DNA from: Terriglobus sp. TAA 43
GTDB lineage: Bacteria > Acidobacteriota > Terriglobia > Terriglobales > Acidobacteriaceae
Reading direction: 5' to 3'
Assembly: GCF_000800015.1 (NCBI RefSeq)
Contig: NZ_JUGR01000003.1
Span: 1-64,000, forward strand
DNA: 64,000 bases
Within the stretch, counting starts at the first letter, position 1; each line of letters opens with the position of its first letter. The notes below the pieces were generated by a model. That model saw only the letters and a list, made by a program, of their open reading frames with translations, did no database searches and was not told the DNA's origin. Made by a program: the position numbers and the translations under genes. Of this stretch, positions 20,141 to 34,029 are shown in pieces.

Positions 20141-21739
20141 ATGCGGTTTTCTGTCTTGCAAAGGAAATGGTGGTCGTCTGTGTATACGCCAGTGCCTCGT
20201 CAACAGGTTGTAAGCGCAATCACGCACCTTCGCCAGTTGTACCGAAAGAGTCCGCACGCGACAGAGGCCGAGGCGCGGGCTCACGACAAACGCGAAGCGG
20301 TAGCAAAGAATTTGATCGACAACATCGCTCGAACCGGCTCTCATCCCACGTTGCACACGGTTCTCGAAGTCGCAGATATTTTTTCGCTAACACTCCAAGG
20401 GTCACATCGCCTCTTCGGCTATAACCTCGACCGATTGCGTCACTACGATGCGATTCTCAACAATGCCTCAACTCGGATCATCGAACACTATGCCTTCGAG
20501 CGTGATCTGCCCATCGATCTGCCTCATCGGTTCCATGAAGGGAAAGCCTGGGAAGCGACGAGTTCCCTTCACCAACTCGTCTCGGAATGGCAACACAATG
20601 TCCCCATTGGTGCAATCGATCGAGAGCCCTGGCGAGCTAAGGGAACGTTCTACGTTCAAGTCGGTACCCTCGACAGTCTTGGGACTAGCCTACCTCCAGG
20701 ATCGATTGCCATGGTTGAGCCGATCTCCGAAGAAGAGTTGCTGCATCCAAGTCCGCGATCCATTTACCTCTTGCAATTCGGCAATGGATATCGCTGTAGT
20801 CGCTGCGTGACAACACGTGGAAAGCTGCTGCTGCTGACCGGCGGCAAGCACTACACCGGCCCTCAGGAGTTTCGATATCCAGGACAGGTTCGCATCGTCG
20901 GACGAGTCCGGCTCTTCGCTATAGACTTACCCACAAAAGAAAACCCCCTCATACAGACACCGGCGGCGCCGCGCCTCGACGCACCGCTCGCGCTGCCTTG
21001 GGAACATCGATCTTTGCATGGCCTGCTCGCCACCGAGTACGCCCGATTTCAACGGATGCGAAAAGGGGACGGCGCTTACGTGAGAGACGTTCTCGAAAAT
21101 GCTTTTGGGCGACGTTTGAGTTCCAGAACTGAGAAGCGGTACCGTGGACAAACCACGAGTCAGCCACACATTGACGTTCTCATTCAGATGACCATGATCA
21201 GTGTTGTCCGATACCGCGACGCTCTCCGAGCTGCCGGGGTATTGTCATCCGACCGAAGACGCTATTCACTCGAAACCCTGTTGGCAGCTCGACAGCTTGC
21301 GGATGTGACGCAATTCGAACGCACAGCCGGAGTGCCACAACCGATAACACAATGGCAGAAGCTCCAACACCAATTCGTCGAGTGGCCGACGTTGCTGTCT
21401 CAGAGGTTCCCGCGACTCCGCGACTTCGAAGGTCAGGTAGTACGCCTACCTGAGACCGGCCGACTGCAAGGGATCGAACCGCAGCTTGTGGCTGGTACCA
21501 TCGCGATCCTCGATACAGGCAACGACATCTCTGATGTGTCGGTCGACCCCAGGAAGCCTGGCTGGCAACGGCCCATCTACATGTTGCAACGCGGCACTCA
21601 ATCTTTCCTAGGCTTTCTGCGGCGCGATGCGGAAGCTCTGACATTATTCTCAGGCTCTCCAGAAGTGCCTCCGATCGCACTCCAGCATCATGAGATCCCG
21701 TTGCTGCGACGCGTGGCGGCCATTGCCGTTCCGGTCTGA
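20141..21739 (+). CDS. Large regulator-like protein with two LexA/S24-like halves (lasso cluster)
   Basis: About 532 residues from ATG 20141; a GTG at 20180 is an alternative start. The N-terminal ~120 residues are helical and may hold a degenerate helix-turn-helix (HPTLHTVLEVADIFSLTLQG). Residues ~165-265 resemble a LexA/S24 peptidase fold: GTLDSLG, PGSIAMVEPI, SIYLLQFGNGYRCSRC, and the closing VRIVGRVRLF. A second similar module fills the last ~110 residues: GTIAILDTGN, RPIYMLQRGTQSFLGF, a late PLLRRVAAIAVPV. A catalytic Lys is not evident, so these are probably sensory rather than proteolytic. It precedes the PqqD-like gene by ~125 bases on the same strand and is the natural candidate regulator of the locus. 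Domain calls are inference. Confidence 0.65.
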   Translation: MRFSVLQRKWWSSVYTPVPRQQVVSAITHLRQLYRKSPHATEAEARAHDKREAVAKNLIDNIARTGSHPTLHTVLEVADIFSLTLQGSHRLFGYNLDRLRHYDAILNNASTRIIEHYAFERDLPIDLPHRFHEGKAWEATSSLHQLVSEWQHNVPIGAIDREPWRAKGTFYVQVGTLDSLGTSLPPGSIAMVEPISEEELLHPSPRSIYLLQFGNGYRCSRCVTTRGKLLLLTGGKHYTGPQEFRYPGQVRIVGRVRLFAIDLPTKENPLIQTPAAPRLDAPLALPWEHRSLHGLLATEYARFQRMRKGDGAYVRDVLENAFGRRLSSRTEKRYRGQTTSQPHIDVLIQMTMISVVRYRDALRAAGVLSSDRRRYSLETLLAARQLADVTQFERTAGVPQPITQWQKLQHQFVEWPTLLSQRFPRLRDFEGQVVRLPETGRLQGIEPQLVAGTIAILDTGNDISDVSVDPRKPGWQRPIYMLQRGTQSFLGFLRRDAEALTLFSGSPEVPPIALQHHEIPLLRRVAAIAVPV

Positions 21740-21864
21740 GACACAGTTCCAGCCAATGCCCTTTAGCGTAACTTTGGCCTTCTAAGCCCGTTACTGGGTT
21801 GAGCTCTCTCGTCGTCCTTCAAGCTTGCAATCACGAAGACATCCTGTTCGAAACGGGTGGAGTC

Positions 21865-22158
21865 ATGATTCGGATCCGTGAAGATGTACGGTTTGCCCGA
21901 GAGGGAGACGGTGGGGTCTTGCTCGATCTGGCAAAGAATCGGTTCTTTGATCTGAATGCGACAGGAGCAGACATTTGGCAGCATGTGCTTGCGGGTGCCT
22001 CGGTGGATCAAATCGTCGCCGTTCTATCCCAGGAAACGATGACCTCCCCTGCCGTGATCGAGAAGGCCGTTGGTGAATTTCTTCAAACCCTGGACTCCCT
22101 TGGTCTCGTCATTGTTGGCAAAACGGAGCCTACCTCGGAGCGGTCATGTCATGCATAG
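21865..22158 (+). CDS. PqqD-type RiPP recognition element (lasso B1-like)
   Basis: A 97-residue PqqD-like protein from ATG 21865, with GGTGGAG just upstream; the frame-open TTG at 21799 is less likely. It carries the family pattern VRFAREGDGGVLLDLAKNRF, then FDLNATGADIWQHVLAGAS and VIEKAVGEFLQTLDSLGLVI. PqqD/RRE proteins bind RiPP leader peptides and deliver them to processing enzymes; in split lasso systems this is protein B1, partner of the B2 protease at 23496. Its stop overlaps the kinase start by 8 bases (ATGCATAG), so translation is coupled. Family membership is clear; the lasso role comes from the neighbours. Confidence 0.9.
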   Translation: MIRIREDVRFAREGDGGVLLDLAKNRFFDLNATGADIWQHVLAGASVDQIVAVLSQETMTSPAVIEKAVGEFLQTLDSLGLVIVGKTEPTSERSCHA

Positions 22159-23503
22159 TCTTCGCGCGAAATACGATCTGCTCATTCTTCACAAAGCGAC
22201 ACGAACGGTTGCCGTACTACGTGCAAATCCTACCCAACTTCCATCGGTTGAGGTCTCGAATCATTTACGTCCCGCCCTCGCTGTAACCGAAAGCGCACTC
22301 TCGACGCTCGGCATCCAAGTTCTTGTTCTCTCCTGGCATGCCCGTCTCGACAAGGCTTACCTCGCCATTGTGGAACTGCTCTCGTCGCCAGAAACGCTGC
22401 CCGTCAAACTTCGATTCCTTGAGGAACATGAGTTCGCCTCATGGCTTGATGCAGACACGCTTGCATTGTTTTCGGATGCCCATGGACCAACAGTCGCTCG
22501 TTTGAATCCCTATGCACAGGTGGGTTGGATCGACACGTTCCAAACGCTCTATTGGCATGCGGAGATGACAGAGATCCGGCAACTGAACTGCGGGAACCGG
22601 TTTTCTTTGTTCCGTTTCTCTTCGGAGGCAAGACAGTATTGGTTCAAAGGAGTGGGCGATCCCAATACGCACGAATTCGCTTTAACGAAGCTTTTGGCCC
22701 AGTACGCGCCCGAACGAACCGCTCCCACGGAGCTTTTCATTGATGACTGGAATGCATGGATCTCAAAAGAAGTTGTCGGTGTCCCCCTACGCGAAGTACA
22801 TGACATCGAGGTTTGGTCGCATGCTTTGGAGGACTTGGCCTCAATCCAAATTGCAACCCAAGATCATCTGCGTCAATTCCAGCAAGCGGGGGCACGCTCA
22901 CTCCGCAATCTCGACATTCTGCGGTGTTTGCCAGAGCTGATGGAAGAGTCACGCGTGGCCATGGAAGCGCAGACGTCATCACGTGCGCCCCGTCTCAGTG
23001 ACGGCGACCTCCGTGAGCTATCAATGCAAATCACAACCCTTCTGAATCGCTTCGAAGATCTGCAAATCCCGAACCGACTGATCCATTGCGATCTCGGTTC
23101 GGGCAATGTGCTGATGGGAAACAACGGAGCCACCTTCCTTGATTGGGCGGAGAGCTACATCGGGGCTCCGGTTATCTCTGCAGAACTCTTGCTTGCCTCC
23201 GCGGAATGTCTTGAGCCGAGATGCGTTACGAGGCTTCGAGAAAACTACGTCGCTCGACTACATCCCGACCTTTCAGAGATCAACAGACAAGTGGTCGTCT
23301 CCATCATGCCGGTTCTAGGACCACTCGCAACCGCAGTCATCGGATGGAGACACAATCAACGGGTTCAGCGGCGAGATCGCTTTTGGCCAATCCTTCGATC
23401 ACTCATGCGTCGCATCCAGTGCTCCATCGCAGAAGAACCGCCGGGAGTGAGCCGATTCACAACGGGTGCCCCTCAAGACATTCGAATGGACCACCATGCC
23501 TAG
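22151..23503 (+). CDS. Aminoglycoside-phosphotransferase-like kinase in the lasso cluster
   Basis: A 450-residue protein from ATG 22151. Residues ~165-400 have an APH/choline-kinase fold: a nucleotide-side Lys in ARQYWFKGVGDPNTHEFALT, the catalytic loop HCDLGSGNVL (His312, Asp314: H-x-D-x4-N), and the metal-binding Asp331 in FLDWAES. The first ~150 residues (YDLLILHKATRTVAVLRANP and onward) are an extra domain not identified. Known lasso kinases are HPr-kinase-like and phosphorylate a C-terminal Ser; an APH-fold enzyme here suggests a different tailoring or self-protection step on the precursor or peptide. Both ends overlap its neighbours by 8 bases, so it is embedded in the biosynthetic operon. 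The substrate is unknown. Confidence 0.82.
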   Translation: MHSLRAKYDLLILHKATRTVAVLRANPTQLPSVEVSNHLRPALAVTESALSTLGIQVLVLSWHARLDKAYLAIVELLSSPETLPVKLRFLEEHEFASWLDADTLALFSDAHGPTVARLNPYAQVGWIDTFQTLYWHAEMTEIRQLNCGNRFSLFRFSSEARQYWFKGVGDPNTHEFALTKLLAQYAPERTAPTELFIDDWNAWISKEVVGVPLREVHDIEVWSHALEDLASIQIATQDHLRQFQQAGARSLRNLDILRCLPELMEESRVAMEAQTSSRAPRLSDGDLRELSMQITTLLNRFEDLQIPNRLIHCDLGSGNVLMGNNGATFLDWAESYIGAPVISAELLLASAECLEPRCVTRLRENYVARLHPDLSEINRQVVVSIMPVLGPLATAVIGWRHNQRVQRRDRFWPILRSLMRRIQCSIAEEPPGVSRFTTGAPQDIRMDHHA

Positions 23504-23879
23504 CCAAATGGTTCATGTTCTGAAGGCATATTGCCTACTGATCCGTTGGGACATCTTCATGAAGCGCCATTCCTTTCTGGAACTGTATGAAGCGATCCGC
23601 TCTTTGCCGACATCTCCCAGACCGGCGTCAACGACGGTTTCCGATTCACTCTATGACGCAGTAGAAGTCGCTTGTGCCTTGTATCCAAAACAAGTTCTCT
23701 GCCTGCAACGATCCTGCGTGCTCACTCGGATGTGTCGTTCTCGAGGCCTCGCGGCGCAGCTCACCATCGGCTCACAACGTAGGCCGTTTCGGGCCCACGC
23801 GTGGGTGACTCTTGAAGGCGAAATTATTCGGGACAGGCTCGCACAACGAGAAGCTTTCCTCATTTTGGAGGTTTGCTGA
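23496..23879 (+). CDS. Lasso peptide B2 leader protease (transglutaminase-like)
   Basis: A 127-residue McjB-C-terminal/B2-family protein. The Cys-His-Asp triad of the transglutaminase-like fold is visible: Cys74 in VLCLQRSCVLTRMC, His101 in RAHAWVTLEGE and Asp113 in IIRDR. The text QRSCVLTRMCRSRGLAAQLT, then GSQRRPFRAHAWV is strongly B2-like. With the separate PqqD-type B1, it would cut the leader off the precursors. ATG 23496 overlaps the kinase stop by 8 bases (ATGCCTAG), repeating the junction used upstream. Its stop TGA shares a base with the cyclase ATG (TGATG). Length is normal. Confidence 0.92.
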   Translation: MPSQMVHVLKAYCLLIRWDIFMKRHSFLELYEAIRSLPTSPRPASTTVSDSLYDAVEVACALYPKQVLCLQRSCVLTRMCRSRGLAAQLTIGSQRRPFRAHAWVTLEGEIIRDRLAQREAFLILEVC

Positions 23880-25759
23880 TGAGTGCGATTGCCGGTATCT
23901 TTCGCAGGGATATCCGTGAACGCGTGGACGGCGACAATCTCCGCGACTTGGAGAAAGCCATCATGTTTCTCGGTCCAGACGAGGGTTCCTCTCGCGCATT
24001 GGGTCCAGTCGGGTTGATCCATCGTGCGCTCAATACACGCACCGACGCAACGGTATCTCAACCGTTCCGCAGGGGAACGGCGTGGATCGTCTTTGATGGC
24101 TATCTCTCCAATCGTGATGAACTCCTCAATCGCTTTGGCCACACATCGCGCGAAGATCCAACCGACGTCGATCTGGTTCTTTCGTGCCATGAGAAATGGG
24201 GGCTCAATGCCTTCGAGCGCATAGAGGGTGCTTTCGCCTTCTGCGTCTGGGAGATGGCGACGCAGAGGTTATTTCTTGCCCGCGATCCTATGGGAATACG
24301 ACCACTCTTCCTTCGCAGTGATCCGCATCAGCATGTCTGGTGCAGTGCGCTCGAGCCTCTTGTACTCGGAGCGAACCGAACTCTGACGTTGAACTGCAAG
24401 CACGTCCACAAACTATTCACGTCGCAACCATGTCTCGACACAACATGCTACGAGGAGATTCTCGCTGTCCCTCCGGGAATGGTTGTTGCGCTTCGACCAG
24501 AGAGCGTTCCCATACGACGGCGATTCTGGAGTCTCGCCGCGACCGAACCGATCCGATTACATTCCGATGCCGACTATGAAGAGCAGTTTCGCTTACATTT
24601 GACCCGATCGGTTTCCCAATGTCTGCGGTCACGTACAACCGTTACCGCGGAGCTGAGTGGTGGTCTCGATTCCAGCACGATCGTCTGCATTGCAGACCGC
24701 ATCCGCGGGAACGAGAATCAATCGCTCATCGAAACGATCTCGTATTTTGATACGGACGAACCCAGCGGCGATGAACGCCCTTACATCGCGATGGTCGAAC
24801 AACAACGTGACAAGGTTGGACAGCATATCTCATTCGCAGACTTTCGCCGTCTGCACCAATCGACGGAGCTACAACCTCTCACAACCCCGTTCCAGGCCTC
24901 ACCCGGAAGGTTCGCGCATAACCTGCAACGTCAATCGATCATTCACCAAGCCTTGCGTGATCTCAACAGTCGCGTACTCTTGTCCGGCCTCGGAGGAGAT
25001 GAGTTTCTGGGAGGAGTCCCTTATGGAGCACCTGAAATCGCCGACCATCTTTTTGCTTATCGTTTCGTTGCCGGTGCGAAGTCGCTTCTGGCCTGGTCGA
25101 TCGCGCGCCAACAGACGATCTGGTCGTGCTGGGAAGAGGTCAGCGCACTGCTCCGAGCCCAACGTCTCCCGACGTCCATGTTGGAATCCCCCGAAACAGC
25201 GTTCCCTTGGCTGCTTCAGCAACGAAGCTCAGAGACCGGAGTGTTTACCGAGTTCTCTGACTGGCCAGCCCTTACACCCAGCCAACTGACCTACGAGTGG
25301 CTGCGCTCGAAACTCGCAAGTCAATTCACAATCGCGGGGACACCGCTCTTCGGTGGTACCGAAACGCGGTACCCACTCCTGGATCTTTCGTTGTTTCGCT
25401 TTCTGGCATCGATTCCGCGAGATCAGGTCCTTCGTGCTGGTGAACGGCGACGCTTGCAGCGAAGAGCACTCCACGGCATCGTTCCAGCGGGCATTCTTAC
25501 GCGCCGGACGAAGTGGTTCGGACTTCGCGAAGCACACGAGCTACTTCGCAGCGAAAGTGCGAATGAGGTTCTTGCACAGGATTGGCTGACCTCCGGGCTG
25601 TTCTTCGACATGAAGCTGCTTCGACAGGCACACAGAAACATTGTCACCGGCAATCCAGGACCGGCGCTGCCCCTTCAGATGGCAATTGCGCTCGAGCAAT
25701 GGCTTCGGAAGCAGGTCGAACAAGGAACGATCGCAACACCGACTCCAAGATCGGCTTGA
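23879..25759 (+). CDS. Lasso peptide cyclase (asparagine synthetase-like, McjC family)
   Basis: A 626-residue asparagine-synthetase-B-like protein. It begins MSAIAGIFRRD; true glutamine-dependent enzymes begin with a catalytic Cys (MCGI), so the glutaminase site is dead, as in lasso cyclases. The synthetase half has the ATP loop SGGLDSS at 260-266 and the SGLGGDEFLGG segment. Such cyclases activate an Asp/Glu side chain with ATP so that it forms a macrolactam with the new N-terminus. GGAGG 8 bases before ATG 23879 and the TGATG junction with B2 support this start. The stop is followed by a palindrome and the two precursor genes. Confidence 0.92.
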   Translation: MSAIAGIFRRDIRERVDGDNLRDLEKAIMFLGPDEGSSRALGPVGLIHRALNTRTDATVSQPFRRGTAWIVFDGYLSNRDELLNRFGHTSREDPTDVDLVLSCHEKWGLNAFERIEGAFAFCVWEMATQRLFLARDPMGIRPLFLRSDPHQHVWCSALEPLVLGANRTLTLNCKHVHKLFTSQPCLDTTCYEEILAVPPGMVVALRPESVPIRRRFWSLAATEPIRLHSDADYEEQFRLHLTRSVSQCLRSRTTVTAELSGGLDSSTIVCIADRIRGNENQSLIETISYFDTDEPSGDERPYIAMVEQQRDKVGQHISFADFRRLHQSTELQPLTTPFQASPGRFAHNLQRQSIIHQALRDLNSRVLLSGLGGDEFLGGVPYGAPEIADHLFAYRFVAGAKSLLAWSIARQQTIWSCWEEVSALLRAQRLPTSMLESPETAFPWLLQQRSSETGVFTEFSDWPALTPSQLTYEWLRSKLASQFTIAGTPLFGGTETRYPLLDLSLFRFLASIPRDQVLRAGERRRLQRRALHGIVPAGILTRRTKWFGLREAHELLRSESANEVLAQDWLTSGLFFDMKLLRQAHRNIVTGNPGPALPLQMAIALEQWLRKQVEQGTIATPTPRSA

Positions 25760-25762
25760 CAG

Positions 25763-25777
25763 CTCTGCAATGCAGAG
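25763..25777 (+). promoter_or_regulatory. Palindrome between cyclase and first precursor
   Basis: CTCTGCA-A-TGCAGAG is a perfect 15-bp palindrome 4 bases after the cyclase stop and 31 bases before the first precursor ATG. It could be an operator, an RNA processing hairpin or an mRNA stabiliser; the sequence does not say which. Confidence 0.45.
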
Positions 25778-25808
25778 GGACGCAAATCCAAGAAAGGAGG
25801 ACAAGACA

Positions 25809-25961
25809 ATGAAGTCCATCAAGCCAACCATCGCAGAACTGGGCTCCGCGACTGCATCAATTCAGGCAGTCGGCGGATCCAAGGTTCAGCAGCTTGTGCA
25901 AGATGCTGGCGGCCCAGATCTGATCTGGAGCACTGGCATGTCGTACAACATTGACGAATAA
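25809..25961 (+). CDS. Lasso peptide precursor 1
   Basis: A 50-residue peptide with AAGGAGG 8 bases upstream of ATG 25809. The N-terminal KPTIAELGSATASIQ fits the leader motif bound by PqqD-type B1 proteins (P-x-I-x-E-L-G). The C-terminal half reads GGPDLIWSTGMSYNIDE. Candidate ring-closing acids are Asp32 and Asp37. Asp32 with a 9-residue ring places the cleavage after Gly23, with Ser24 as residue 1 and an 18-residue tail. Asp37 would need Leu29 or Val30 as residue 1. The usual Thr at leader position -2 is not found with either option. It aligns without gaps to precursor 2 (25 of 50 identical). The assignment as precursor rests on size, leader motif and position after the cyclase. Confidence 0.85.
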   Translation: MKSIKPTIAELGSATASIQAVGGSKVQQLVQDAGGPDLIWSTGMSYNIDE

Positions 25962-25969
25962 CCCTAGCC

Positions 25970-25996
25970 GGGGACACCTCTCGCGAGCGTGTCCCC
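25970..25996 (+). promoter_or_regulatory. Hairpin between the two precursor genes
   Basis: GGGGACAC and GTGTCCCC form a perfect 8-bp GC-rich stem with an 11-base loop, 8 bases after the first precursor stop. There is no poly-T run, so it may stabilise the mRNA or cause partial termination that sets the ratio of the two precursors. Confidence 0.55.
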
Positions 25997-26024
25997 ACTA
26001 AAAATGCAATGGAGGAATCAGCCG

Positions 26025-26177
26025 ATGAAATTCAACTCGCCTTCGATTTACGAGTTAGGAAACGCAACCGAGGCCATCCAATCAATCCATGGTGCAAAGA
26101 CCTCCCCACTCATACCCGAGGCCTCTGGTCCCGATATCCCATGGAGTACTGGCAACGCTTACGCCGTCGACGAATAG
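26025..26177 (+). CDS. Lasso peptide precursor 2
   Basis: A 50-residue paralogue of precursor 1, with GGAGG about 9 bases before ATG 26025. Its leader part is SPSIYELGNATEAIQ and its end GPDIPWSTGNAYAVDE. The ungapped alignment keeps Pro6, the E-L-G at 10-12, Ala14-Thr15, Gly23, Lys25, Leu29, G-P-D at 35-37, W-S-T-G at 40-43, Tyr46 and the final Asp-Glu. Position 32 is Glu here and Asp in precursor 1, both usable for a macrolactam. The middle (residues 20-34) varies most, while the C-terminal end is conserved, the reverse of many precursor families. The gene ends 8 bases from the convergent isopeptidase gene. Confidence 0.85.
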   Translation: MKFNSPSIYELGNATEAIQSIHGAKTSPLIPEASGPDIPWSTGNAYAVDE

Positions 26178-26185
26178 TTAAGAAC

Positions 26186-28519
26186 TCAATCCGAAAACGG
26201 TGGCGCATCATGGTGAATTCTTGAGAGCATTTCTCGCGCGCGGAGTGCCTCCCAACGCTGATACTGATCCCTCTTCGATGGATCGGGATCGACGAAGCCC
26301 TGTAACCAAAAGCGAAACCAATCCAGATTTCCCTCCTGCGCTATGCGTCGAACGGACGGTTGCGCGACCAGATGAGCCTTCGTGTTTAACACGATCATTT
26401 CCGCAGGCTGCTTTCCCAGCCACAGCCGGCAATACGGCTCCCACATCTCGAGGATTCCAGAATCCACGCGGGAAACGATGCGCAGTGGAGTTCGAATGTC
26501 TCCCGTGTTGAACTCTGGAGAGTTCTTCAACCAAGCACCCATTCCAGGCTCCAGCAGAGGACCTCCCGCGAGGTTCTCTTGATCGCGAATGAAGGACTCG
26601 CTGCCTGCTGCGTCCACAAGGTATGCCATGTAGCCAACGTTGATGCCGTCCGTGATGGAAGCTGCAGCGAAGCGCACATCTTTGCTCACCAAAGCCTTCA
26701 TTACGTACGACACAGTCCGGCTGAAGCCGATTAACCCCACACGGTCTGCATCTGCTCCTTCCTCTGCTGACAACTGTTCGATCGCGGCCCTGTATTCGGA
26801 GACGTTGCAGGACATTTCGGTCACCGTAGAACGCTCCGGGCAATCCTTGACTTGAAGAACCATGATCCCTGCGGCAGCGAGTTCCTCCGCGACGAAAACA
26901 CTCGGGAAGTTGCCGCTCGGCATGAAGTCACTGTTGTCGAAACCATGCGTCTGGATCACGAGCGGATAATGAACGCCAGGTTGGTATCCGATGGGCCGGA
27001 AGAGCAGTCCATTCCAGTTCTTATCGCCATCGCTCCATCGATAGTCTTCCACCGTTCCCATGTGCACTGACTTGAGTTGTGGGTTGGGATCGAAGATGAT
27101 CGATTGCGCCTCATCGCCACTGGCTGTTCGAACAAGTACAGGACTGTGGAGGGTACTCTGAACGATTTCAAATCTCTGTGGCACGCTTGCGACAGCAGTG
27201 CGCGCCGTTGCCTTCCAACGTCCGTCTGGCGACCGAGTGTAGTGTTCAAACCAACGTGTTCCGGAAGATTCCGTCTCCAGCTCAAGCGAAGGACTTTCTC
27301 CATTCTGGTTCAGCAACCGCGCAGAAAACAGCCGCGCATACCCATCTTCGTGGGTAGTCCCGAAGTTTCGTTTTGAGGGTCGAACACAACTCAGCGCGAA
27401 TGACTTCATCTCCACGATTGACGAGCAGGGGCGATTGTCAGGAGTCAGGGGGCGATCCGCAAATGTCGACGGAAGAAACACGAAACGACTATCGGACGAC
27501 CAGGTAATGCCAGCAAGACGATTCTCGGTCCAATCCAATCGAAAAGCATCTGGGCCACCCGCAAGAGGCTTAATGCTACCGCTCGCGGTATTGATGGCCA
27601 CATACTCGCCAAGCAGCCCCCAGTTCACAATCTGATTGAGGTCCTGAACGCCGGGACGAAGAGGATGCGGTGCTCCCGGATACGCGAGCGGATAGCGTGT
27701 GACCCATTCCTGCGGAATGTTGTCGTAGGGGCGAACCGTCGCAATCCAGGCCCCGTCCGGAGAGATGCTCAGGTTGAGGGTGCCGTCTGCCAATATCCGC
27801 AGTGGCTTATGGCTCTCAGGGTCGACGATCCGCTGTTCGTGTCCTTCACGAACGGACCACAGGTCTGTTCGTGAAGCAACGGTATCCGATCCGGGATAAA
27901 GAACATGTGTGAGCATCGCATTGCCCACAACGCGTGCAGGCTTATGCACTTCTCTGGCCTGACGGTCCACAATCTCTTGCGCGGGTGACGTGTAGACGAA
28001 GTGCTTCTCATCCGCGATGTCGAACGAGATGATGTCCCGGTCGCCGTTGGTGAGTTTGCGGACGCGTTGCTTCGAAGGGTCGGCGAGGTATAGCTCTCGC
28101 TTCCCGTCAGCCGTCCATTTCAGAAACGCGACTTCTTCTCCTCGTGTCCATCGAAGTTGCGTAACGGTGGCATCCATCTGGTTGATGGGAACGACACTCT
28201 CTTCCACGATCCAATCCGGATGCACGTCGGAGAGTGGGGTGGATGGCTGTGGATGCAGAAGTCTCTCGTTGCGGTAGAAGCGCAACTGATCATGGAGGCG
28301 ATCGTCTCGTTCATCGGCGCGAACTGTATGAACGCAAAGCCATCGACCATCCGGAGATTCCTGAACCGCACGGTCACGCTCCTCTCCCCAGATCGTGCCA
28401 AATCGAACGATGCTGATGTCGTCGCTCACAGTCAACGTGTGCTCTTGGGCATACAGCGTCAAGATGCACAAATTCAGACACACTGCGGCAAGAAGCCTGC
28501 GCAGGCTTCGATTAGTCAT
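26186..28519 (-). CDS. S9 prolyl-oligopeptidase-family protein, probable lasso peptide isopeptidase
   Basis: A 777-residue exported S9 protease. It has a signal peptide (MTNRSLRRLLAAVCLNLCIL and TLYAQ), a propeller region with repeats such as SPDGRWLCVHT, WTADGKRELYLAD and SPDGAWIATVRP, and a C-terminal alpha/beta-hydrolase domain. The likely triad is Ser600 in LIGFSRTVSY, Asp686 in IVSRVDSG and His716 in NTKAHLV. In proteobacterial lasso loci, AtxE-type S9 isopeptidases sit beside a TonB receptor and sigma/anti-sigma genes and open the macrolactam of threaded peptides. The same arrangement occurs here: upstream on the same strand are a TonB receptor, an anti-sigma and an ECF sigma factor. 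GFSRT departs from the usual GxSxGG. Confidence 0.82.
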   Translation of the reverse strand: MTNRSLRRLLAAVCLNLCILTLYAQEHTLTVSDDISIVRFGTIWGEERDRAVQESPDGRWLCVHTVRADERDDRLHDQLRFYRNERLLHPQPSTPLSDVHPDWIVEESVVPINQMDATVTQLRWTRGEEVAFLKWTADGKRELYLADPSKQRVRKLTNGDRDIISFDIADEKHFVYTSPAQEIVDRQAREVHKPARVVGNAMLTHVLYPGSDTVASRTDLWSVREGHEQRIVDPESHKPLRILADGTLNLSISPDGAWIATVRPYDNIPQEWVTRYPLAYPGAPHPLRPGVQDLNQIVNWGLLGEYVAINTASGSIKPLAGGPDAFRLDWTENRLAGITWSSDSRFVFLPSTFADRPLTPDNRPCSSIVEMKSFALSCVRPSKRNFGTTHEDGYARLFSARLLNQNGESPSLELETESSGTRWFEHYTRSPDGRWKATARTAVASVPQRFEIVQSTLHSPVLVRTASGDEAQSIIFDPNPQLKSVHMGTVEDYRWSDGDKNWNGLLFRPIGYQPGVHYPLVIQTHGFDNSDFMPSGNFPSVFVAEELAAAGIMVLQVKDCPERSTVTEMSCNVSEYRAAIEQLSAEEGADADRVGLIGFSRTVSYVMKALVSKDVRFAAASITDGINVGYMAYLVDAAGSESFIRDQENLAGGPLLEPGMGAWLKNSPEFNTGDIRTPLRIVSRVDSGILEMWEPYCRLWLGKQPAEMIVLNTKAHLVAQPSVRRIAQEGNLDWFRFWLQGFVDPDPSKRDQYQRWEALRAREMLSRIHHDAPPFSD

Positions 28520-28542
28520 TGCATTGTCCTCGGGATGGTGCG

Positions 28543-31500
28543 TTAGAAACTGAGCTTCAACATGAATTGGAACGAACGAGGTCCGCCATTTTGATAGAGC
28601 GAGTTCAGCCCACCGAGCGTTGCGTTGAGCGTCTGGTAGCTTCTGCCAAACTGGGTGGCACCATAGGAGAGTTGGTTGTAGATGGCGCCGAACTGCGGAT
28701 GATTCGTCAGGTTGAAAGCCTCACCTCGAAATTGGAGATGAAGACGGTCGACGAGAGCGAAGTCTCTTCGTACCGCAGCATCGAGTTGCGCCGCTGAGAA
28801 TCCCTGAAACGCGTTGCGGGCGACATTTCCCTGCTGCCCGCTGGGCGCGGCGGCGAACGCTGCGTAGTTCAGAATGCGGCCGCCGGGATAGGCACCATGC
28901 AGATAGATTGGCTGACCCGCGACGTAGTTGGGAAAGTACTGCGTGTATTGTCCAGATTGCGTATTGAGCGACTGCGCACCAATCACACTCAGGGGAAGCG
29001 CAGTGCGAGCCTGCAACCGCAGATCAAGGCCCCATCCACTGCTCAACTTTCCTAGCACTCCAGTTGTCGACGCACCCGGAATGTCCCAAGTCATCGCAGC
29101 CTGGAGCGATTGGCGGATGTCAAAGTCGGAGTTGGATCGTTGCAGTTGATAAACGATCAGATTGCTGGAAGCGTTATCGATGGAGTGCGACCACGTATAG
29201 GATCCCAGCAACTGCAAGCCTTTGCGAACGGACCGCTGCACCTTTGCCTGGAGCGAGTTGTATCCAGAAGATGCACTGCCCTTGATGAGATAGAGAAGAC
29301 CACCGGAAGAGAAGTTCGTATTGCCCAACGATGCTGGATAGTACTGGTACCGGGTGAGCAAGCGATGACCCGAAGACCCGACGTATCCCAGAGTGAATGT
29401 CGTGTGATTGTCGATTCCCTGCTCCACCGCCGCAGAATATTGGTACGAGAATGGCAATCGCAGGTTTGGATCAAAGCCGGTGACAACTCCGCTGTAGGGT
29501 GTGGTGACACTTGGGGCAGGTAGCGACAGTTGTTCCGAGTTCAGCGGGTACGGGACATTGGTTAAGGTCTTGCTGGCCTTGTATCCCACACCACCATAAC
29601 CGGTACTGCCCTGCATCGTTCCAGTGTCGTAGAAAGTCCCGCCGCCAAGACGCACGACCGTATTGCGGACGTTGCCAGGATATGCCTGCCACGCCAAGCC
29701 CAAGCGAGGAGCGATCCCCGTCCAATCTGTCTTCCACAAAGACGTGCCATAGGGAGCAACCGCAATCGATTTCAAGTCCGTGATCTGAGACACGGTGTAG
29801 GGCTGAGAGGTTCCCCGATCATGGGGCGCAGAATTGATGTCCCAACGAACACCCGCAGAGATCGAAAGATGGCTTGTGGCTTTCCACTCGTCCTGGAGGT
29901 ACGCGGCAAAGTTGTCATATCGGGGCAGCCCTTCAATGGGCGAATTCTGGGCGACCACGGTCGTTGCAGGTGTGTTTGATAGCACTTGGGCCATCGTTGT
30001 GAAGGTCGGCTCTTCTTCCACAGACAGTGGATAGAGGGTTGAATCGATCTGACGCCAATCGATGCCTGCCTTGAACGTATGCGTTCGGAACAACCACGTG
30101 TGACTATCCGTGATGTTCAATTGCTCTTGTTCTGATGGCACCGAGTAGAGATTGAAGATGGTGTAGTTCGCAAACGAAAACGTAGCCGACAGAACTCCAC
30201 CACTTGCGGGAAACGATCCACCATTCGGACCAGGGAGCGTCGACAAGTTTAAGGGAGTAGCGCCGCCAAGATTCGTGGACGTCAACGAAACAGGTGCCTC
30301 AACATGAGTCCAATTAAACCGTAGCTGATTGGATTGCGATCCGCTGATTGCGAGATCGAGTCCGGTAGTGAGGCCCTTGTTGCGTATCTGGGTCTCCGTC
30401 CTCACTGCAGCAGAGTAGGTCGTAGATTGCGATGGTGTACTCGCAAATCGCACGAAGGCGTTGACTCCCTTCCGGAAAGCGTGATCGACTCGACCACTGA
30501 TGTTGTCGAGAGAGGAAGGAAAAGAAACTGACTGAAGGTAGTATGCGAAGCCGTCGGTCCTTGTGCCAATCCCATAGTTCGGTCGCGGAAAAGCATTCAA
30601 GAGCGGCTGTAGCGCCGCAGGGGACGAAGACCGCAAAGTATCGGTTGGTACCAGCACCTGAGAAACAGCCTGCGGTGTGCGGAGACGCGCTCCTTCATAG
30701 GACAGAAAGAAAAACGTGTCCGGTGTGCGACTGCCGCGCGTGAGAAACGGAACGGGCCCACCCAGCGTGCCCCCAAAATCGTTCTGACGTTCTTTGCCCT
30801 TGGGATATCCGTAGTAGTCGTTAAACCAGTTGTTGGCATCGAGTACATCATTGCGGAGATAGTCATACAGAGAACCATGAAAGCTCTGAGTGCCGGAACG
30901 CGTGCTCAGGGAGAAATTGCCACCCGGAGATCGGCCAAACTCCGCGGAGAATGTCGAAGTGTTACTCCGAAACTCCTCAAGATCATCCACAGAGACCAGA
31001 CTCTGCGTTGATCCAAGTGCTGTAACGGACGAAGCATTGCCAGAGACTGCAGCGCCGGTTCCAAACTGTCCCGGTGATGCACTTGTATTTGCGCTCACAC
31101 CATCGACGGTGAAGTAGTTTGATTCGGAGCGCATGCCATTCACAACAATCTCACCGCTATAGCTGGCAGCCGTCGATTGAGGCGCAACAGGAACCTGAAA
31201 GACGCCGGGGGCAAGTGTGAGAAGGCTCTGGAACGAGCGCCCATTCAAAGGCATCTTCTCGACGAAGTCATGCTCAACGACTGTGCTCACCAAGCCGTCC
31301 ACCGTGTTGATCTGCGTGCCTTGCGCTTTGACGGTCACGCTCTCCGAAGCGGCTCCGATACGCAATGAGAAGTTGAGCGCCACGGCGCTCTGGACGTTGA
31401 GAACAACATCGGCCTTGATGATGGTTTGGAATCCAGGCTTCGTCACCTGCACGTGATAGTGGCCAGGCGGAAGAACGGGTACAAGGTACATACCGACGTC

Positions 31501-31677
31501 ATTGGTCTTCGCGCTGTAGACGAGGCCGGTGCCGTCGTTCTGGATGAGAACATCCGCACCGGGAATCAACTTGCCTGCGGAGTCTGTCACCCCGCCGCTA
31601 ATCGTTGCGTTTGTCGATTGCGCTCGACAAACAGTTGGAACAAGACACAAGCCAAGTACTGCAATCCGACGTTTCAT
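28543..31677 (-). CDS. Oar-type TonB-dependent receptor of the lasso locus
   Basis: About 1044 residues from ATG 31677, which opens the signal peptide MKRRIAVLGLCLVPTVCRAQ (GGAG upstream); longer frame starts lack it. Residues ~25-110 are a carboxypeptidase-regulatory-like domain (GGVTDSAGKLIPGADVLIQN, VPVLPPGHYHVQVTKPGF). A plug follows (EKMPLNGRSFQSLLTLAPGV) and then a long barrel (SFHGSLYDYLRNDVLDANNW) ending RSFQFMLKLSF. It lies 23 bases upstream of the isopeptidase gene in one operon with sigma and anti-sigma genes, so its most likely cargo is the lasso peptide made by the converging operon. That substrate is inferred from context. Confidence 0.9.
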   Translation of the reverse strand: MKRRIAVLGLCLVPTVCRAQSTNATISGGVTDSAGKLIPGADVLIQNDGTGLVYSAKTNDVGMYLVPVLPPGHYHVQVTKPGFQTIIKADVVLNVQSAVALNFSLRIGAASESVTVKAQGTQINTVDGLVSTVVEHDFVEKMPLNGRSFQSLLTLAPGVFQVPVAPQSTAASYSGEIVVNGMRSESNYFTVDGVSANTSASPGQFGTGAAVSGNASSVTALGSTQSLVSVDDLEEFRSNTSTFSAEFGRSPGGNFSLSTRSGTQSFHGSLYDYLRNDVLDANNWFNDYYGYPKGKERQNDFGGTLGGPVPFLTRGSRTPDTFFFLSYEGARLRTPQAVSQVLVPTDTLRSSSPAALQPLLNAFPRPNYGIGTRTDGFAYYLQSVSFPSSLDNISGRVDHAFRKGVNAFVRFASTPSQSTTYSAAVRTETQIRNKGLTTGLDLAISGSQSNQLRFNWTHVEAPVSLTSTNLGGATPLNLSTLPGPNGGSFPASGGVLSATFSFANYTIFNLYSVPSEQEQLNITDSHTWLFRTHTFKAGIDWRQIDSTLYPLSVEEEPTFTTMAQVLSNTPATTVVAQNSPIEGLPRYDNFAAYLQDEWKATSHLSISAGVRWDINSAPHDRGTSQPYTVSQITDLKSIAVAPYGTSLWKTDWTGIAPRLGLAWQAYPGNVRNTVVRLGGGTFYDTGTMQGSTGYGGVGYKASKTLTNVPYPLNSEQLSLPAPSVTTPYSGVVTGFDPNLRLPFSYQYSAAVEQGIDNHTTFTLGYVGSSGHRLLTRYQYYPASLGNTNFSSGGLLYLIKGSASSGYNSLQAKVQRSVRKGLQLLGSYTWSHSIDNASSNLIVYQLQRSNSDFDIRQSLQAAMTWDIPGASTTGVLGKLSSGWGLDLRLQARTALPLSVIGAQSLNTQSGQYTQYFPNYVAGQPIYLHGAYPGGRILNYAAFAAAPSGQQGNVARNAFQGFSAAQLDAAVRRDFALVDRLHLQFRGEAFNLTNHPQFGAIYNQLSYGATQFGRSYQTLNATLGGLNSLYQNGGPRSFQFMLKLSF

Positions 31678-31763
31678 GCTGCGGTGCTCCGAAGACTTGA
31701 GAGTGGTGGGCCTACTCTGTCTACGGCTGGCCACGCGAAGGTGTACCAACGACCCGAGCTAGA

Positions 31764-33008
31764 TTATGGATGATTCGGTTGAATTTGCAGATAAGAGCGC
31801 AGAAGGGGCTTCCCTGTCGGCTTTTGGCTTCCGCCTTCAGGTTCCACGGTCACGAAGACCATGTTGAGTCGCGACAACGTCTTGGCATCATTGAAGCGAA
31901 CCACCCAACGCTTGTGGGCGTCGTCCTGATAGAACAATCCGAGGCTCACGGGTTGACGATCAGCGCCAGTACCCCAGGCTTGAAACGAAACACTTTGTTT
32001 AAGCCCTGGCTGCTTGTCCAGATCAAAGCCATAGAACACGAGCGAGCGATCCTGCGTGTAGAAGATTCTGCCGAAAGGCTTCGCAGTCTTCCCTGTCTCG
32101 GTGGCATCGAAGATGTCCGCGATGTAGAGGTTGCGAGCACCGATCACATCGCGAATATCACGGTCGTGCGCCAGGAAGTCACGATCGAGAGCAAGCATGC
32201 GTTCGCGATCATTCAAGGTGGTCTTGGAGTCTTCGAGAGCCGCATTCAACATCCGGACATTCGTCTCGAGGGAGGCGAGTTGCGTGGCCTGTCGGTCGGA
32301 AGTGGACTGGGAGGAATCCGCCGTGTCCTTCAGGGTCCGCACTTGAGACTGAGCCGCGTTCAATTGTTTGCTTAGATTGTCTCTCTCCGCGACGAGATTC
32401 TCTCGCTCTGCCTGCTCCTTTTGCATCTGTTGCCGAAGGGATGCATTGGTCGCGTCGAGATTGGACGCACGATTCTCCAGCTCGGAAACTCGTCGCTGCA
32501 TCTCCGCCAATCGCGCGCTCTCCGGCTCACCTGGTAGGGCGTTGTTTTTGGGAGTAGGAGCCGACACAGGGGCGGAAGAGATTACTGAATGGGAAGGCTG
32601 ACGAGGTGAAGCGTTCTTATCTTCTCGAAACTTTTGACCGAGAAGCGTGACCAGCACTGCAATCGATGCTGCGAGAGTTCCATTCAGGACTAGAAGTCGA
32701 GTCGGTCGCTTACGAGGTTCGGCGGATTGCTCACGAGGAAGGTCCAATACCGACGCCATGAGACGTGCCTCCGCAGTGCCTAGAGATGCCTGCGATTCTC
32801 TGGGGAGACCCCGCGCCTCATCAAGCGCATCAGTAGCTATCACCGGAAAAACATCGCGTGAAATCTGCTGAAACTGTTCAAAGGTTCGACGACAGTCATC
32901 GCAGTACGCAAGATGAACCTGCAAGAGAGCCCACTCCTCCTCCGACAGTTCGCCGGCATGGAAGAGCGCACAGAATGTGATGAACTCTTCGTGGAGTCGC
33001 TCGTTCAC
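31764..33008 (-). CDS. Zinc-finger anti-sigma factor with coiled coil
   Basis: About 414 residues from GTG 33008 (AGAGG 9 bases upstream); a TTG at 33050 would add 14 residues and sit 6 bases after the sigma stop. The N-terminus is a zf-HC2 anti-sigma domain (FCALFHAGELSEEEW, VHLAYCDDCRRTFEQFQ: H-x3-C-x2-C). A membrane helix follows (RLLVLNGTLAASIAVLVTLL), then a long periplasmic coiled coil (RLAEMQRRVSELENRASNLD, LRQQMQKEQAERENLVAERD and onward) and a C-terminal globular domain (RIFYTQDRSLVFYGFDLD). The domain order fits an envelope-spanning anti-sigma that receives a signal outside the inner membrane and releases the ECF factor encoded just upstream. FecR-like features are absent. Confidence 0.87.
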   Translation of the reverse strand: MNERLHEEFITFCALFHAGELSEEEWALLQVHLAYCDDCRRTFEQFQQISRDVFPVIATDALDEARGLPRESQASLGTAEARLMASVLDLPREQSAEPRKRPTRLLVLNGTLAASIAVLVTLLGQKFREDKNASPRQPSHSVISSAPVSAPTPKNNALPGEPESARLAEMQRRVSELENRASNLDATNASLRQQMQKEQAERENLVAERDNLSKQLNAAQSQVRTLKDTADSSQSTSDRQATQLASLETNVRMLNAALEDSKTTLNDRERMLALDRDFLAHDRDIRDVIGARNLYIADIFDATETGKTAKPFGRIFYTQDRSLVFYGFDLDKQPGLKQSVSFQAWGTGADRQPVSLGLFYQDDAHKRWVVRFNDAKTLSRLNMVFVTVEPEGGSQKPTGKPLLRSYLQIQPNHP

Positions 33009-33056
33009 CGGCTCAAACCTCTTGCGATCAGTGCGTTTGGCAATACCCAATCCTGA

Positions 33057-33701
33057 CTACTTGGTACGCGAGAACAGGTTCGCGCGAAGGCGCTCAATGG
33101 CACGATAGTAGTGATGCCGAACGTTCCCGAGCGTCTGCCCGCTCCGCTCCGCGATCTCTCTGAAACTGTACCCCTCAAGGATGTGGAGTTCCAACGTTTT
33201 CCGTTGGTCGGGAGGGAGCTGTTCCCTCAGCCTCGACAAAAGTGCCTTACCGTCAAGGTGTTCCGCTGAGAGTTCACTTCTCTGTTCATGCTGGCGAGTT
33301 TCATCGAAAACCTCCGACTGGTAGTGATGTCGATGGGACAAATACCTCCGTCGATCGATGGCTCGATGATAGGTGATCTGCAATATCCAAGAGAGGCCAC
33401 TGGTTTTTTCAGGATCAAAGTTGGCCGCTCTCTCAAAGAGATAGAGAAACACCTCTTGCCGTAGATCCGCTGCTTCCGTCTCGTCGCATAGAATTCGATG
33501 TGCCAACCGATAGACCGCTCGGGCATGTTTTCCAAACAACAGACCAAGTGCTTCGTGCGACCCATTCACTAGAGCGACAAGCAACTGCTCATCCGTGACC
33601 GGTACCATTTCTTGTCCGACCGGACGTGACGTGGGCAGCGGGCCCGCATCGACGATCTTTCCGAGGGTCTTCGGCAGCTCGAGCGCAACTTCTGAATTCA
33701 T
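33057..33701 (-). CDS. ECF-family RNA polymerase sigma factor
   Basis: A 214-residue sigma factor from ATG 33701, with GGGGAG 8 bases upstream. Region 2 is LFGKHARAVYRLAHRILCDE, then AADLRQEVFLYLFERAANFD and GLSWILQITYHRAIDRRR; region 4 is LPPDQRKTLELHILEGYSFR, then EIAERSGQTLGNVRHHYYRA. It heads the minus-strand operon sigma, anti-sigma, TonB receptor, isopeptidase, and probably switches that operon on when the receptor or anti-sigma detects its ligand. Fec-type sigma control is the rule in proteobacterial lasso uptake loci; the partner protein differs here. Confidence 0.92.
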   Translation of the reverse strand: MNSEVALELPKTLGKIVDAGPLPTSRPVGQEMVPVTDEQLLVALVNGSHEALGLLFGKHARAVYRLAHRILCDETEAADLRQEVFLYLFERAANFDPEKTSGLSWILQITYHRAIDRRRYLSHRHHYQSEVFDETRQHEQRSELSAEHLDGKALLSRLREQLPPDQRKTLELHILEGYSFREIAERSGQTLGNVRHHYYRAIERLRANLFSRTK

Positions 33702-33807: not shown

Positions 33808-34029
33808 GTGCCCACTCCCTCGATCAAAACGCTTTTCGGCCGATCGATACGATCGTTGCGAGAGGAACGTGGCTATTCGCAAGAAGAACTCGCAGAGCGC
33901 GCAGGACTTCACCGCAATTACGTCGGGGGGATCGAGCGTGGGGAACGCAATGTGGGGTTAGAAAACGTCGCAAAGCTCGCAAAAGCATTGAAAGTGAGAA
34001 CGCGAGAGCTCTTCGACTCTCTGCCTTAG
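33808..34029 (+). CDS. XRE-family helix-turn-helix protein
   Basis: A 73-residue Cro/cI-type regulator: [20 protein letters not shown], then [20 protein letters not shown] and [17 protein letters not shown]. It is a bare DNA-binding domain with no sensor part. The GTG start at 33808 has only a weak ribosome binding site. It diverges from the sigma operon with about 100 bases between, so it may share that control region; the direct pair CACTCATTGTG / ACTCATAGTG lies there. It could equally belong to the restriction-like genes further right. The 290 bases after it hold nothing recognisable. Confidence 0.82.

Follow-up and report, generated by a model that had tools for sequence, protein, structure and literature searches.

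A predicted lasso-peptide production and recapture locus of Terriglobus sp. TAA 43 and the near-fixed lysine-to-acid spacing in its precursor family

What would a bacterium make, and take back, with a locus in which a lasso-peptide operon runs head-on into genes for a receptor and an isopeptidase, and how would the ring of the product be closed? This question is raised by the soil bacterium Terriglobus sp. TAA 43 (Acidobacteriota, Acidobacteriaceae), in which a stretch of 64,000 nucleotides (assembly GCF_000800015.1, contig NZ_JUGR01000003.1, positions 1 to 64,000; here called the window) carries two convergent arms, one for lasso-peptide biosynthesis on the plus strand and one for a sigma factor, an anti-sigma protein, a TonB-dependent receptor, and an isopeptidase on the minus strand (Table 1). 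Taken as a whole, and leaving the chemistry of the ring aside, the locus is likely to encode a system for production, recapture, and linearization of a lasso peptide. Its gene content, the homology of its proteins, its conserved layout, and a near-fixed spacing between a lysine and an aspartate or glutamate in the precursor cores can be read directly from the sequences. An initial annotation, made from the letters of the window, had described a lasso-peptide make-and-recycle locus; this holds at the level of gene content, the observation being confirmed and its interpretation partly supported. The functions of isopeptidase-type lasso peptides have been called enigmatic (PMC9266682).

Proteins of the two convergent arms

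All genes named in the initial annotation are present in the order and on the strands claimed, and the gap between the stop codons of precursor 2 and the isopeptidase gene E is exactly the 8 bases that it gave (26178 to 26185; E ends at 26186). A small XRE regulator gene, divergent from the sigma gene, had been missed. With start codons taken from the translations, B1 overlaps K, K overlaps B2, and B2 overlaps C, and the E, T, anti-sigma, and sigma genes are spaced 6 to about 90 bases apart, depending on the choice of start; given these overlaps and short gaps, each arm looks like an operon.

Among the biosynthetic proteins, B2 lies above the curated cut-off of the lasso model NF033537 (69.2 versus 33 bits) and scores 76.4 bits against PF13471 (cut-off, 26; E value, 2.2e-21), for which it is the only match in this genome. 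B1, designated PqqD-type from the start, passes PF05402 (55.5 bits; cut-off, 23.4; E value, 7.1e-15) and reaches 45.5 bits (6.6e-12) against the lasso-specific PqqD model NF033530, below the cut-off of 70. The cyclase homologue C matches PF00733 (4e-29) and, among NCBIfam models, scores best against the lasso cyclase NF033535. Its GATase_7 glutaminase domain, earlier described as dead, indeed starts with MSAIAGIF, lacking a cysteine after the initial methionine. A PDB profile search with C returned six asparagine-synthetase-like sequences, none of them named a lasso cyclase. K passes the cut-off of PF01636 (3.4e-6), and the HxD, N, and DW positions of its kinase site are invariant among 12 homologues. 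The AlphaFold2 (AF2) model of K (pLDDT of 86) has choline and aminoglycoside kinases as its best fold matches; TvaE bound to TvaLP, which we take to belong to another ribosomal-peptide pathway, is also among them. The APH family is matched by all 12 K members and HPr-kinase families by none, and K is not of the family of the HPr-kinase-like lasso kinases PadeK, ThcoK, and BsfK.

In the opposite arm, E had been annotated as an S9 isopeptidase-like protease, in accordance with its best NCBIfam model, the Atxe2 lasso isopeptidase NF033523, and with its closest solved structure by sequence, AtxE2 (5txc; 1.6e-17). The nucleophilic serine and the histidine of the S9 active site are kept in 26 of 26 aligned rows. 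T consists of CarboxypepD_reg and PF25183 and was called Oar-type in the initial annotation; Oar is a TonB-dependent transporter of Myxococcus (PMC6434023). Of the zf-HC2/coiled-coil description of the anti-sigma protein, the coiled coil and a zinc-finger-like N terminus stand, but zf-HC2 itself stays under its cut-off (17.6 versus 22.2 bits; 0.0042) and RskA_C passes instead (40.1 versus 29.4 bits; E value, 5.3e-10). FecI/FecR/FecA signaling does not describe this arm, in which RskA_C and PF25183/CarboxypepD_reg were found instead of FecR and FecA. The sigma factor carries Sigma70_r2 and r4_2 and scores 86 bits against TIGR02937, above the cut-off, and the XRE regulator matches HTH_3 with 68.5 bits (5e-19).

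Several results weigh against the assignment to lasso peptides. C reaches 242 bits where the cut-off of NF033535 is 525, and E reaches 134 bits where that of NF033523 is 400 (E of three relatives, at 173 to 185 bits, is likewise under it); with both enzymes under their curated lasso cut-offs, substrate and reaction may have drifted. A counterargument considered in the initial annotation, B2 and cyclase scores in the range of unrelated transglutaminase-like and asparagine synthetase proteins, was nevertheless not borne out: B2 passes its lasso cut-off, and the cyclase, though short of its own, has the lasso model as its best. The column of the AtxE2 catalytic acid has no clear alignment in the E family, neither window precursor matched an NCBIfam model at an E value of 0.01, and there is no ABC exporter at the window locus. 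A weaker point concerns ORF1, annotated as the regulator: the gene is present at the head of the arm, but it has no Pfam match at an E value of 0.1, HTH_31 is weakly matched in 4 of 9 family members, the window copy not being one of them, its AF2 model is poor (pLDDT of 59) and unfit for a structure search, and its best result in the PDB profile search was 0.12.

Table 1. Features of the locus in the window
Feature	Position	Strand	Evidence and remarks
ORF1, candidate regulator heading the biosynthetic arm	20141..21739	+	Open reading frame (ORF); homologues in relatives
B1, PqqD-type precursor-binding protein	21799..22158	+	PF05402; start uncertain, first ATG at 21865
K, APH/choline-kinase-fold enzyme	22151..23503	+	PF01636; kinase motifs intact
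B2, leader-removing transglutaminase-fold cysteine protease (predicted)	23496..23879	+	PF13471, NF033537
C, lasso-cyclase homologue, glutaminase domain inactive-looking	23879..25759	+	PF00733, NF033535
Precursor 1 (A1)	25809..25961	+	Leader end S-I-Q; core AVGGSKVQQLVQDAGGPDLIWSTGMSYNIDE; Lys6, Asp13
Precursor 2 (A2)	26025..26177	+	Leader end A-I-Q; core SIHGAKTSPLIPEASGPDIPWSTGNAYAVDE; Lys6, Glu13
E, AtxE2-like S9 isopeptidase	26186..28519	-	NF033523, 5txc; N-terminal signal-peptide-like stretch by eye
T, TonB-dependent receptor	28543..31677	-	CarboxypepD_reg and PF25183 barrel
Anti-sigma protein: zinc-finger-like N terminus, coiled coil, RskA_C	31764..33050	-	Pfam
Extracytoplasmic function (ECF) sigma factor	33057..33701	-	Sigma70_r2, Sigma70_r4_2, TIGR02937
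Small XRE regulator, 73 amino acids, divergent from sigma gene	33808..34029	+	HTH_3

The flanks of the locus hold an MacB/FtsX-type permease and an HATPase_c_3 protein (16275-19136 and 35512-37479), which show no sign of belonging to it.

Conservation in Acidobacteriota and comparison with alphaproteobacterial loci

The system occurs in roughly 1 in 7 sampled genomes of the family of the window and sporadically in neighboring families. PF13471 was found in 47 of 150 relatives. K was matched at E values of up to 1e-3, a count that includes short weak matches, in 69 of the 398 genomes sampled from the family and 86 of the 399 from the class; at 1e-30 it was present in 60 of 397 genomes of the order, and at 1e-15 in 8 of 396 genomes sampled across the phylum, all 8 from Acidobacteriaceae. 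A lasso cluster has been recorded for Granulicella sp. WH15 (PMC7074687).

The stretches fetched, 52 on the basis of B2 matches and 80 on that of K matches, were annotated by profiles built from part of them, and the 72 loci with a cyclase above 500 bits, the window included, form the locus set (individual loci are given by L numbers). Some stretches are incomplete, so the counts of biosynthetic genes are lower bounds: among the 72 loci, B1 occurs in the operon in at least 70, B2 in at least 68, K before C in at least 64, a prolyl oligopeptidase in at least 44, ORF1 in at least 38, and an ABC exporter in at least 15. The opposite arm can be judged on its own, the loci having been picked via B2 or K and not via E or T. 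With at least 6 kb available beyond C (63 loci), T is found in 62, and an S9 hydrolase gene, AtxE2-like or in some cases DPP-like, that lies within 12 kb of C and converges on it, in 58; with at least 9.5 kb (18 loci), an anti-sigma protein is present in 17 and a sigma factor in 16. Small XRE genes adjoin the sigma gene in many relatives too. Named host strains are Terriglobus albidus DSM 26559, Granulicella aggregans M8UP14, and Edaphobacter aggregans DSM 19364.

The loci also vary. K follows C in L111, L126, L127, and L129, in which the precursors lie between C and E. The prolyl oligopeptidase, absent from the window, stands between K and B2 in many loci (e.g., L039:3269-5482 and L034:10229-12376); that of L039 consists of Peptidase_S9_N and S9 domains, and in L124 K is fused with the oligopeptidase into one reading frame. 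L124 also carries a tandem pair of isopeptidase-like genes, as well as three precursors. A DPP-like S9 protein replaces the isopeptidase in L034, L042, L044, L089, L090, L149, L153, and L154 (by Pfam in L034 only). Extra K copies lie approximately 7 to 33 kb from another K locus on the same contig in L123, L130, L132, L134, L135, L136, and L141, and no B or C was found alongside these copies.

For the comparison with alphaproteobacterial loci of the astexin, benenodin, and sphingopyxin type (AtxE2 family), E was searched by tblastn against plasmids; 20 records matched, all of them alphaproteobacterial, and 12 of these loci were examined. In all 12, the receptor and isopeptidase genes run convergently toward the cyclase gene as in the window, and in nearly all, B2 and a precursor follow the cyclase (no precursor is annotated in L193 and no B gene in L187). 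A sigma factor with a FecR or DUF4880 protein lies upstream of the receptor in 10 loci (exceptions, L186 and L189), and in 9, the outermost gene of the biosynthetic arm is a GntR gene (exceptions, L189, L190, and L194). The acidobacterial E profile detected four alphaproteobacterial isopeptidases with 238 to 297 bits, the C profile three cyclases with 74 to 104 bits, and the B2 profile three B proteins with 34 to 61 bits, whereas the T and anti-sigma profiles detected none of four alphaproteobacterial TonB receptors and none of three FecR proteins at an E value of 10. The acidobacterial loci thus resemble the alphaproteobacterial ones in the junction, in the sigma/anti-sigma pair upstream, and in homologous E, C, and B2, and differ in that B is split into B1 and B2, the precursor follows C rather than preceding B, an APH-fold K gene is present, the regulators are XRE instead of GntR proteins, and a PF25183 receptor and an RskA-type anti-sigma protein stand in place of the FecR type.

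The initial annotation, which had rightly noted both the same functional parts in proteobacterial loci and the different receptor and anti-sigma families, left two origins side by side, independent assembly and deep divergence. The homology of E, C, and B2 and the common junction, together with a receptor and an anti-sigma protein of other families, fit better with one old common layout in which these two parts were exchanged; independent assembly is disfavored.

Other described systems share single traits with the window. The bsf locus of Bradymonas sediminis has separate B1 and B2, a kinase gene, Ile(-2), and a YxxP leader; its kinase, unlike K, is distantly HPr-kinase-like and modifies Ser3, its core, unlike those of the window, starts with Gly1 (read off the printed gene), and the word isopeptidase is absent from the main text of the paper (PMC10368454). 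Isopeptidase loci have been reviewed as containing GntR, TonB, and sigma/anti-sigma genes, with rubrinodin as the exception that has both an ABC transporter and an isopeptidase (PMC9266682). With its ABC transporter, isopeptidase, and TonB receptor, the rubrinodin locus resembles some acidobacterial relatives; it is of the FecI/FecR type, which the window is not, and the window has no ABC gene (PMC9266682). Phosphorylated lasso peptides of the paeninodin type likewise have an operon kinase and a conserved C-terminal precursor end, with a C-terminal serine and a His-Lys-Asp-Asp kinase motif where the window has an APH/choline-kinase fold and a C-terminal Y..DE (PMC9266682).

Precursor cores and the lysine-acid unit

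With the window included, the leader is shared by 92 precursors from 70 loci, more than expected by chance; the lack of precursor conservation that the initial annotation had considered as a counterargument was not found. Precursors were selected by YxxP followed by Ile or Val 14 or 15 residues after the tyrosine. Precursor 1, which has SxxP instead of YxxP, was added by hand; it has the leader positions, the Lys-Asp unit, and the tail in common with its relatives. Spurious ORFs (the third of L039, the third of L151, and the second of L156) were removed before counting, and removal of variable regions more than 60% identical left 77 non-redundant cores. Five precursors (two of L111 and those of L126, L127, and L129) came from a listing that required acidic ends, so their tails are biased and their lysine spacing is not. 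L161 failed the filter, having no Ile or Val at the fixed place and a cyclase in pieces; it looks decaying and duplicated, with the same precursor twice and a Lys-acid pair at distance 6 still visible.

All 13 distinct alphaproteobacterial leaders read LG, five residues, Thr(-2), one residue, cut. LG occurs in 14 of the 77 acidobacterial leaders, in 12 of them at the alphaproteobacterial distance from Ile/Val(-2), and a glycine stands at the position of the LG glycine in 23. Since Ile/Val(-2) keeps a fixed distance as in the alphaproteobacterial leaders, the cut is expected after residue -1. This residue is Q, K, or E in 67 of 77 leaders, and the lysine of the alphaproteobacterial leaders aligns with it; at +1, 60 of the 77 cores have Gly, Ser, or Ala. 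In BsfA, Ile(-2) has been shown to be important for removal of the leader, and the same study lists Acidobacteriaceae leaders with Ile or Val at -2 in silico (PMC10368454). At the other end, the core tail is mostly (A/G/S)Y..DE, most commonly AYEADE, with Tyr(-5) in 69, Asp(-2) in 67, and Glu(-1) in 73 of the 77 cores, five precursors having been picked with an acidic end. The 13 alphaproteobacterial precursors likewise all have an acidic last residue, so an acidic tail may mark the whole class. The three precursors of L142 have cores with one to three cysteines in addition to the Lys-acid unit, and a disulfide is possible in the core with three.

The cores do not follow the classical ring pattern. 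With the predicted cut after Ile(-2) and one further residue, neither window precursor has Asp or Glu at core positions 7 to 9, the acid that follows the lysine being at position 13. Instead, both window precursors have in common with their relatives a lysine followed, after six residues, by Asp or Glu. A lysine with an acid at +6 or +7 occurs in 72 of 77 cores (46 at +6, 27 at +7, one with both); other Lys-acid distances from 1 to 14 occur in 2 to 15 cores each. When each core except its last five residues was shuffled 1,000 times, the unit appeared on average in 12.8 and at most in 23 of the 77 cores (second run of 500: 12.7 and 24). At the same spacing, Arg, Gly, and Ser as control residues occurred in 3, 26, and 21 cores, without excess over the shuffles (3.3, 25, and 24.8). 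In the 72 cores the lysine lies at positions 2 to 8, the acid at 8 to 15 (at 8 or 9 in 12 cores), and the acid-to-end distance is 13 to 20; lysine, acid, and end all vary, so the distance between lysine and acid alone is nearly constant. None of the 13 distinct alphaproteobacterial precursors has the unit; all start with Gly and carry D or E at 8 or 9. The two groups of precursors are thus set apart by Ile/Val(-2) with a Lys-Asp/Glu unit on the one hand and Thr(-2) with Gly1-Asp/Glu8-9 on the other.

A later search of the order added six stretches, which belong to five genomes not previously in the set and were read with the same finder. One of them, L201 (= L178), was incomplete and yielded no precursor; all five precursors found have the unit (Lys at 3, 4, 6, 7, and 9) and the tail. 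This set is not wholly new, as L198 equals L176, whose precursors were first read after the rule was made, and the variable regions are 76% (L202 to L118), 68% (L197 to L106), and 48 to 54% (the other three) identical to known ones. Three explanations for the unit were rejected. Selection of precursors by their tail does not produce it, the listing having been redone without the requirement for an acidic end. A cut directly after the lysine, in analogy to the alphaproteobacterial T-K|G leaders, would give rings of 6 or 7, and the lysine of that motif aligns with -1. Nor is K the cause, as L044 and L052 have the unit and no K in the fetched stretch; L043 and L062 lack both.

In the ring chemistry that we regard as the most probable one, at about even odds, the side-chain amine of this lysine, rather than the N-terminal amine, would attack the activated Asp or Glu and leave a short free N-terminal extension. 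By arithmetic, a ring closed by the lysine side chain would contain 26 (Asp, spacing 6) to 30 (Glu, spacing 7) atoms, compared with 25 to 29 in classical rings of 8 or 9 residues, whereas an N-terminal ring after the Ile-x cut would comprise 13 residues in the window and 8 to 16 across the family. It is this near constancy of the one ring size and the variability of the other that favor closure by lysine over a cut before the lysine or large rings. The acid is Glu in 12 of the 46 cores with spacing 6 and in 2 of the 26 with spacing 7, a difference in the sense to be expected if the size of the ring mattered, although it is not significant (Fisher P of 0.07). The N-terminal stretch may vary within one locus: the lysines of L142 are at 4, 7, and 7, with spacing 7 in each. 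Among the 18 loci with more than one scored precursor, the lysine position differs in 4 and the spacing in 2, so most of these loci provide no test.

A leader cut directly before the lysine would make the product a classical alpha-amine lasso peptide, with the lysine as residue 1 and the stretch from Ile-x to Lys as a leader spacer. The resulting rings of 7 or 8 residues are within the lasso range of 7 to 9 (PMC10368454), and the spacing of 6 or 7 fits them. This is nevertheless unlikely, given the small residue at +1, the fixed place of Ile/Val(-2) relative to YxxP (a distance that is part of the filter), and the experimental support for Ile(-2) as the -2 residue in BsfA (PMC10368454); in addition, an alpha-amine needs no lysine, and the lysine alone is conserved at that place. 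Proline directly precedes it in 6 of the 72 cores and directly follows it in 6, and a proline beside the lysine speaks against an N terminus there.

An alpha-amine ring of 8 to 16 residues could alternatively run from the residue after Ile-x to the same Asp or Glu, with the lysine for recognition or as a plug. The small residue at +1 is what classical cores have, and the acid is at position 8 or later in all 72 cores. However, single loci would need several ring sizes (11, 14, and 14 in L142; 15 and 10 in L151), a change of the ring by one residue has been reported to cut production strongly (PMC13352647), big rings would hardly hold a thread, and the near-constant Lys-acid distance would have no explanation. 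We hold rings of this kind to be quite improbable.

Other observations weigh against closure by lysine. Cyclases are described as acting on the N terminus of the peptide (PMC13352647), and the shuffles do not model the relatedness of the rows. Five non-redundant cores lack the 6/7 spacing, those of L097 (8), L125 (5), L043 (two), and L062; none has Arg in place of the lysine, and the three of L043 and L062 are classical Gly1-Asp/Glu8 cores. Acids are also in lesser excess at Lys +9 and at Lys +10, with 15 cores for each position against shuffle maxima of 14 and 12, and since 26 of these 30 cases involve the same lysine, a second acid is common and the acceptor sometimes ambiguous. On a tree of 83 cyclases, the minimum number of changes (66 rows) is 27 for the lysine position, 30 for the acid position, and 16 between spacings 6 and 7, so the spacing is constrained rather than frozen. 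In the cyclase tree (quick method, midpoint root), every row with the unit falls into one set of 71 rows (98), which also takes in L097, L125, and rows for which no precursor was scored. L043 and L062 stand next to this set, on branches that are long and uncertain, and 10 more distant cyclase homologues from PF13471 loci fall outside it.

The product might also be an unthreaded Lys-Asp/Glu stapled peptide, which resembles a graspetide in shape, or might stay uncyclized, with the modification by K as the main one. The N-terminal extensions could hinder threading, and the sub-threshold scores of C and E point the same way. Against this stand B2, above its lasso cut-off, the lasso model as the best one for the cyclase, and the conserved isopeptidase arm, isopeptidases of the AtxE2 type acting on threaded substrates (PMC9266682); we think such a product improbable.

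Proposed pathway and its meaning

In the pathway that we infer, with its transport direction, threading, enzyme activities, cut site, and regulation, B1 would bind the YxxP-type leader, B2 would cut one residue past Ile/Val(-2), and C would activate the Asp or Glu side chain and close the isopeptide ring. K probably phosphorylates the precursor; Tyr(-5), the best-conserved hydroxyl of the tail, is a candidate target, with exceptions in L149 (Phe with K) and in L044 and L052 (Tyr without K in the fetched stretch). The peptide would be exported, by an ABC exporter in some relatives, recaptured by the TonB-dependent receptor T, and linearized by the AtxE2-like E in the periplasm, with the receptor arm under the control of the ECF sigma factor, the anti-sigma protein, and small XRE regulators. 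The fullest version of the product, for which we put the chance a shade below even, would have a Lys-to-acid ring, from which 1 to 8 residues extend as a free N-terminal arm, and maybe two threaded tails; in the cyclase clade, the N-terminal amine would have given way to a lysine side-chain amine as the nucleophile, so that the distance to the leader would no longer constrain ring formation, and receptor and isopeptidase would recognize the Tyr..Asp-Glu tail.

Myxococcus Oar is needed for secretion of PopC (PMC6434023), and the window locus has no ABC exporter, so that the receptor might export the peptide instead of importing it, E then being a periplasmic hydrolase for quality control or immunity. 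An outer-membrane channel, however, is no substitute for export across the inner membrane, and the order of sigma, anti-sigma, receptor, and isopeptidase genes is that of alphaproteobacterial FecR-type uptake-signaling loci; export through T therefore appears doubtful, and recapture remains our preferred reading.

Some candidate control elements were noted in the relatives. Palindromes, GGCACTATAGTGCC or GCAACTATAGTTGC, lie upstream of the sigma gene in L105 (16639, 16662, and 17006), L110, L114, L137, L055, and L122; they are often paired, 23 to 29 bases apart, some loci repeat them several hundred bases further, and the small XRE gene lies between them in L105, L110, and L137. They are probably operators. 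The word ACTATAGT is present in 11 of 37 sigma upstream regions and absent from the scanned 35-kb stretch of the window. Near the ORF1/B1 junction, close to the B1 start, GTTTGGCCA recurs in L098, L100, L107, L110, and L116; several copies form a palindrome-like GTTTGGCCAAAC, and in L107 and L110 two copies are approximately 83 bases apart. A promoter motif common to both arms was rejected, as none stood out in simple word counts.

In the literature searched, coverage of which left out most subscription journals, neither the isopeptidase arm of Acidobacteriota nor closure of a lasso ring by lysine was found described. A second phylum with the same junction and with another receptor and anti-sigma protein separates the parts that are kept from those that can be exchanged, the kept ones being the cyclase, the isopeptidase, a TonB-dependent receptor under a sigma/anti-sigma pair, and the acidic tail. 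If true, closure by lysine would give lasso enzymes a new ring topology and would account for the departure of these cores from the rule of an acid at positions 7 to 9; the cyclase would then tolerate N-terminal extensions, which would be useful for engineering.

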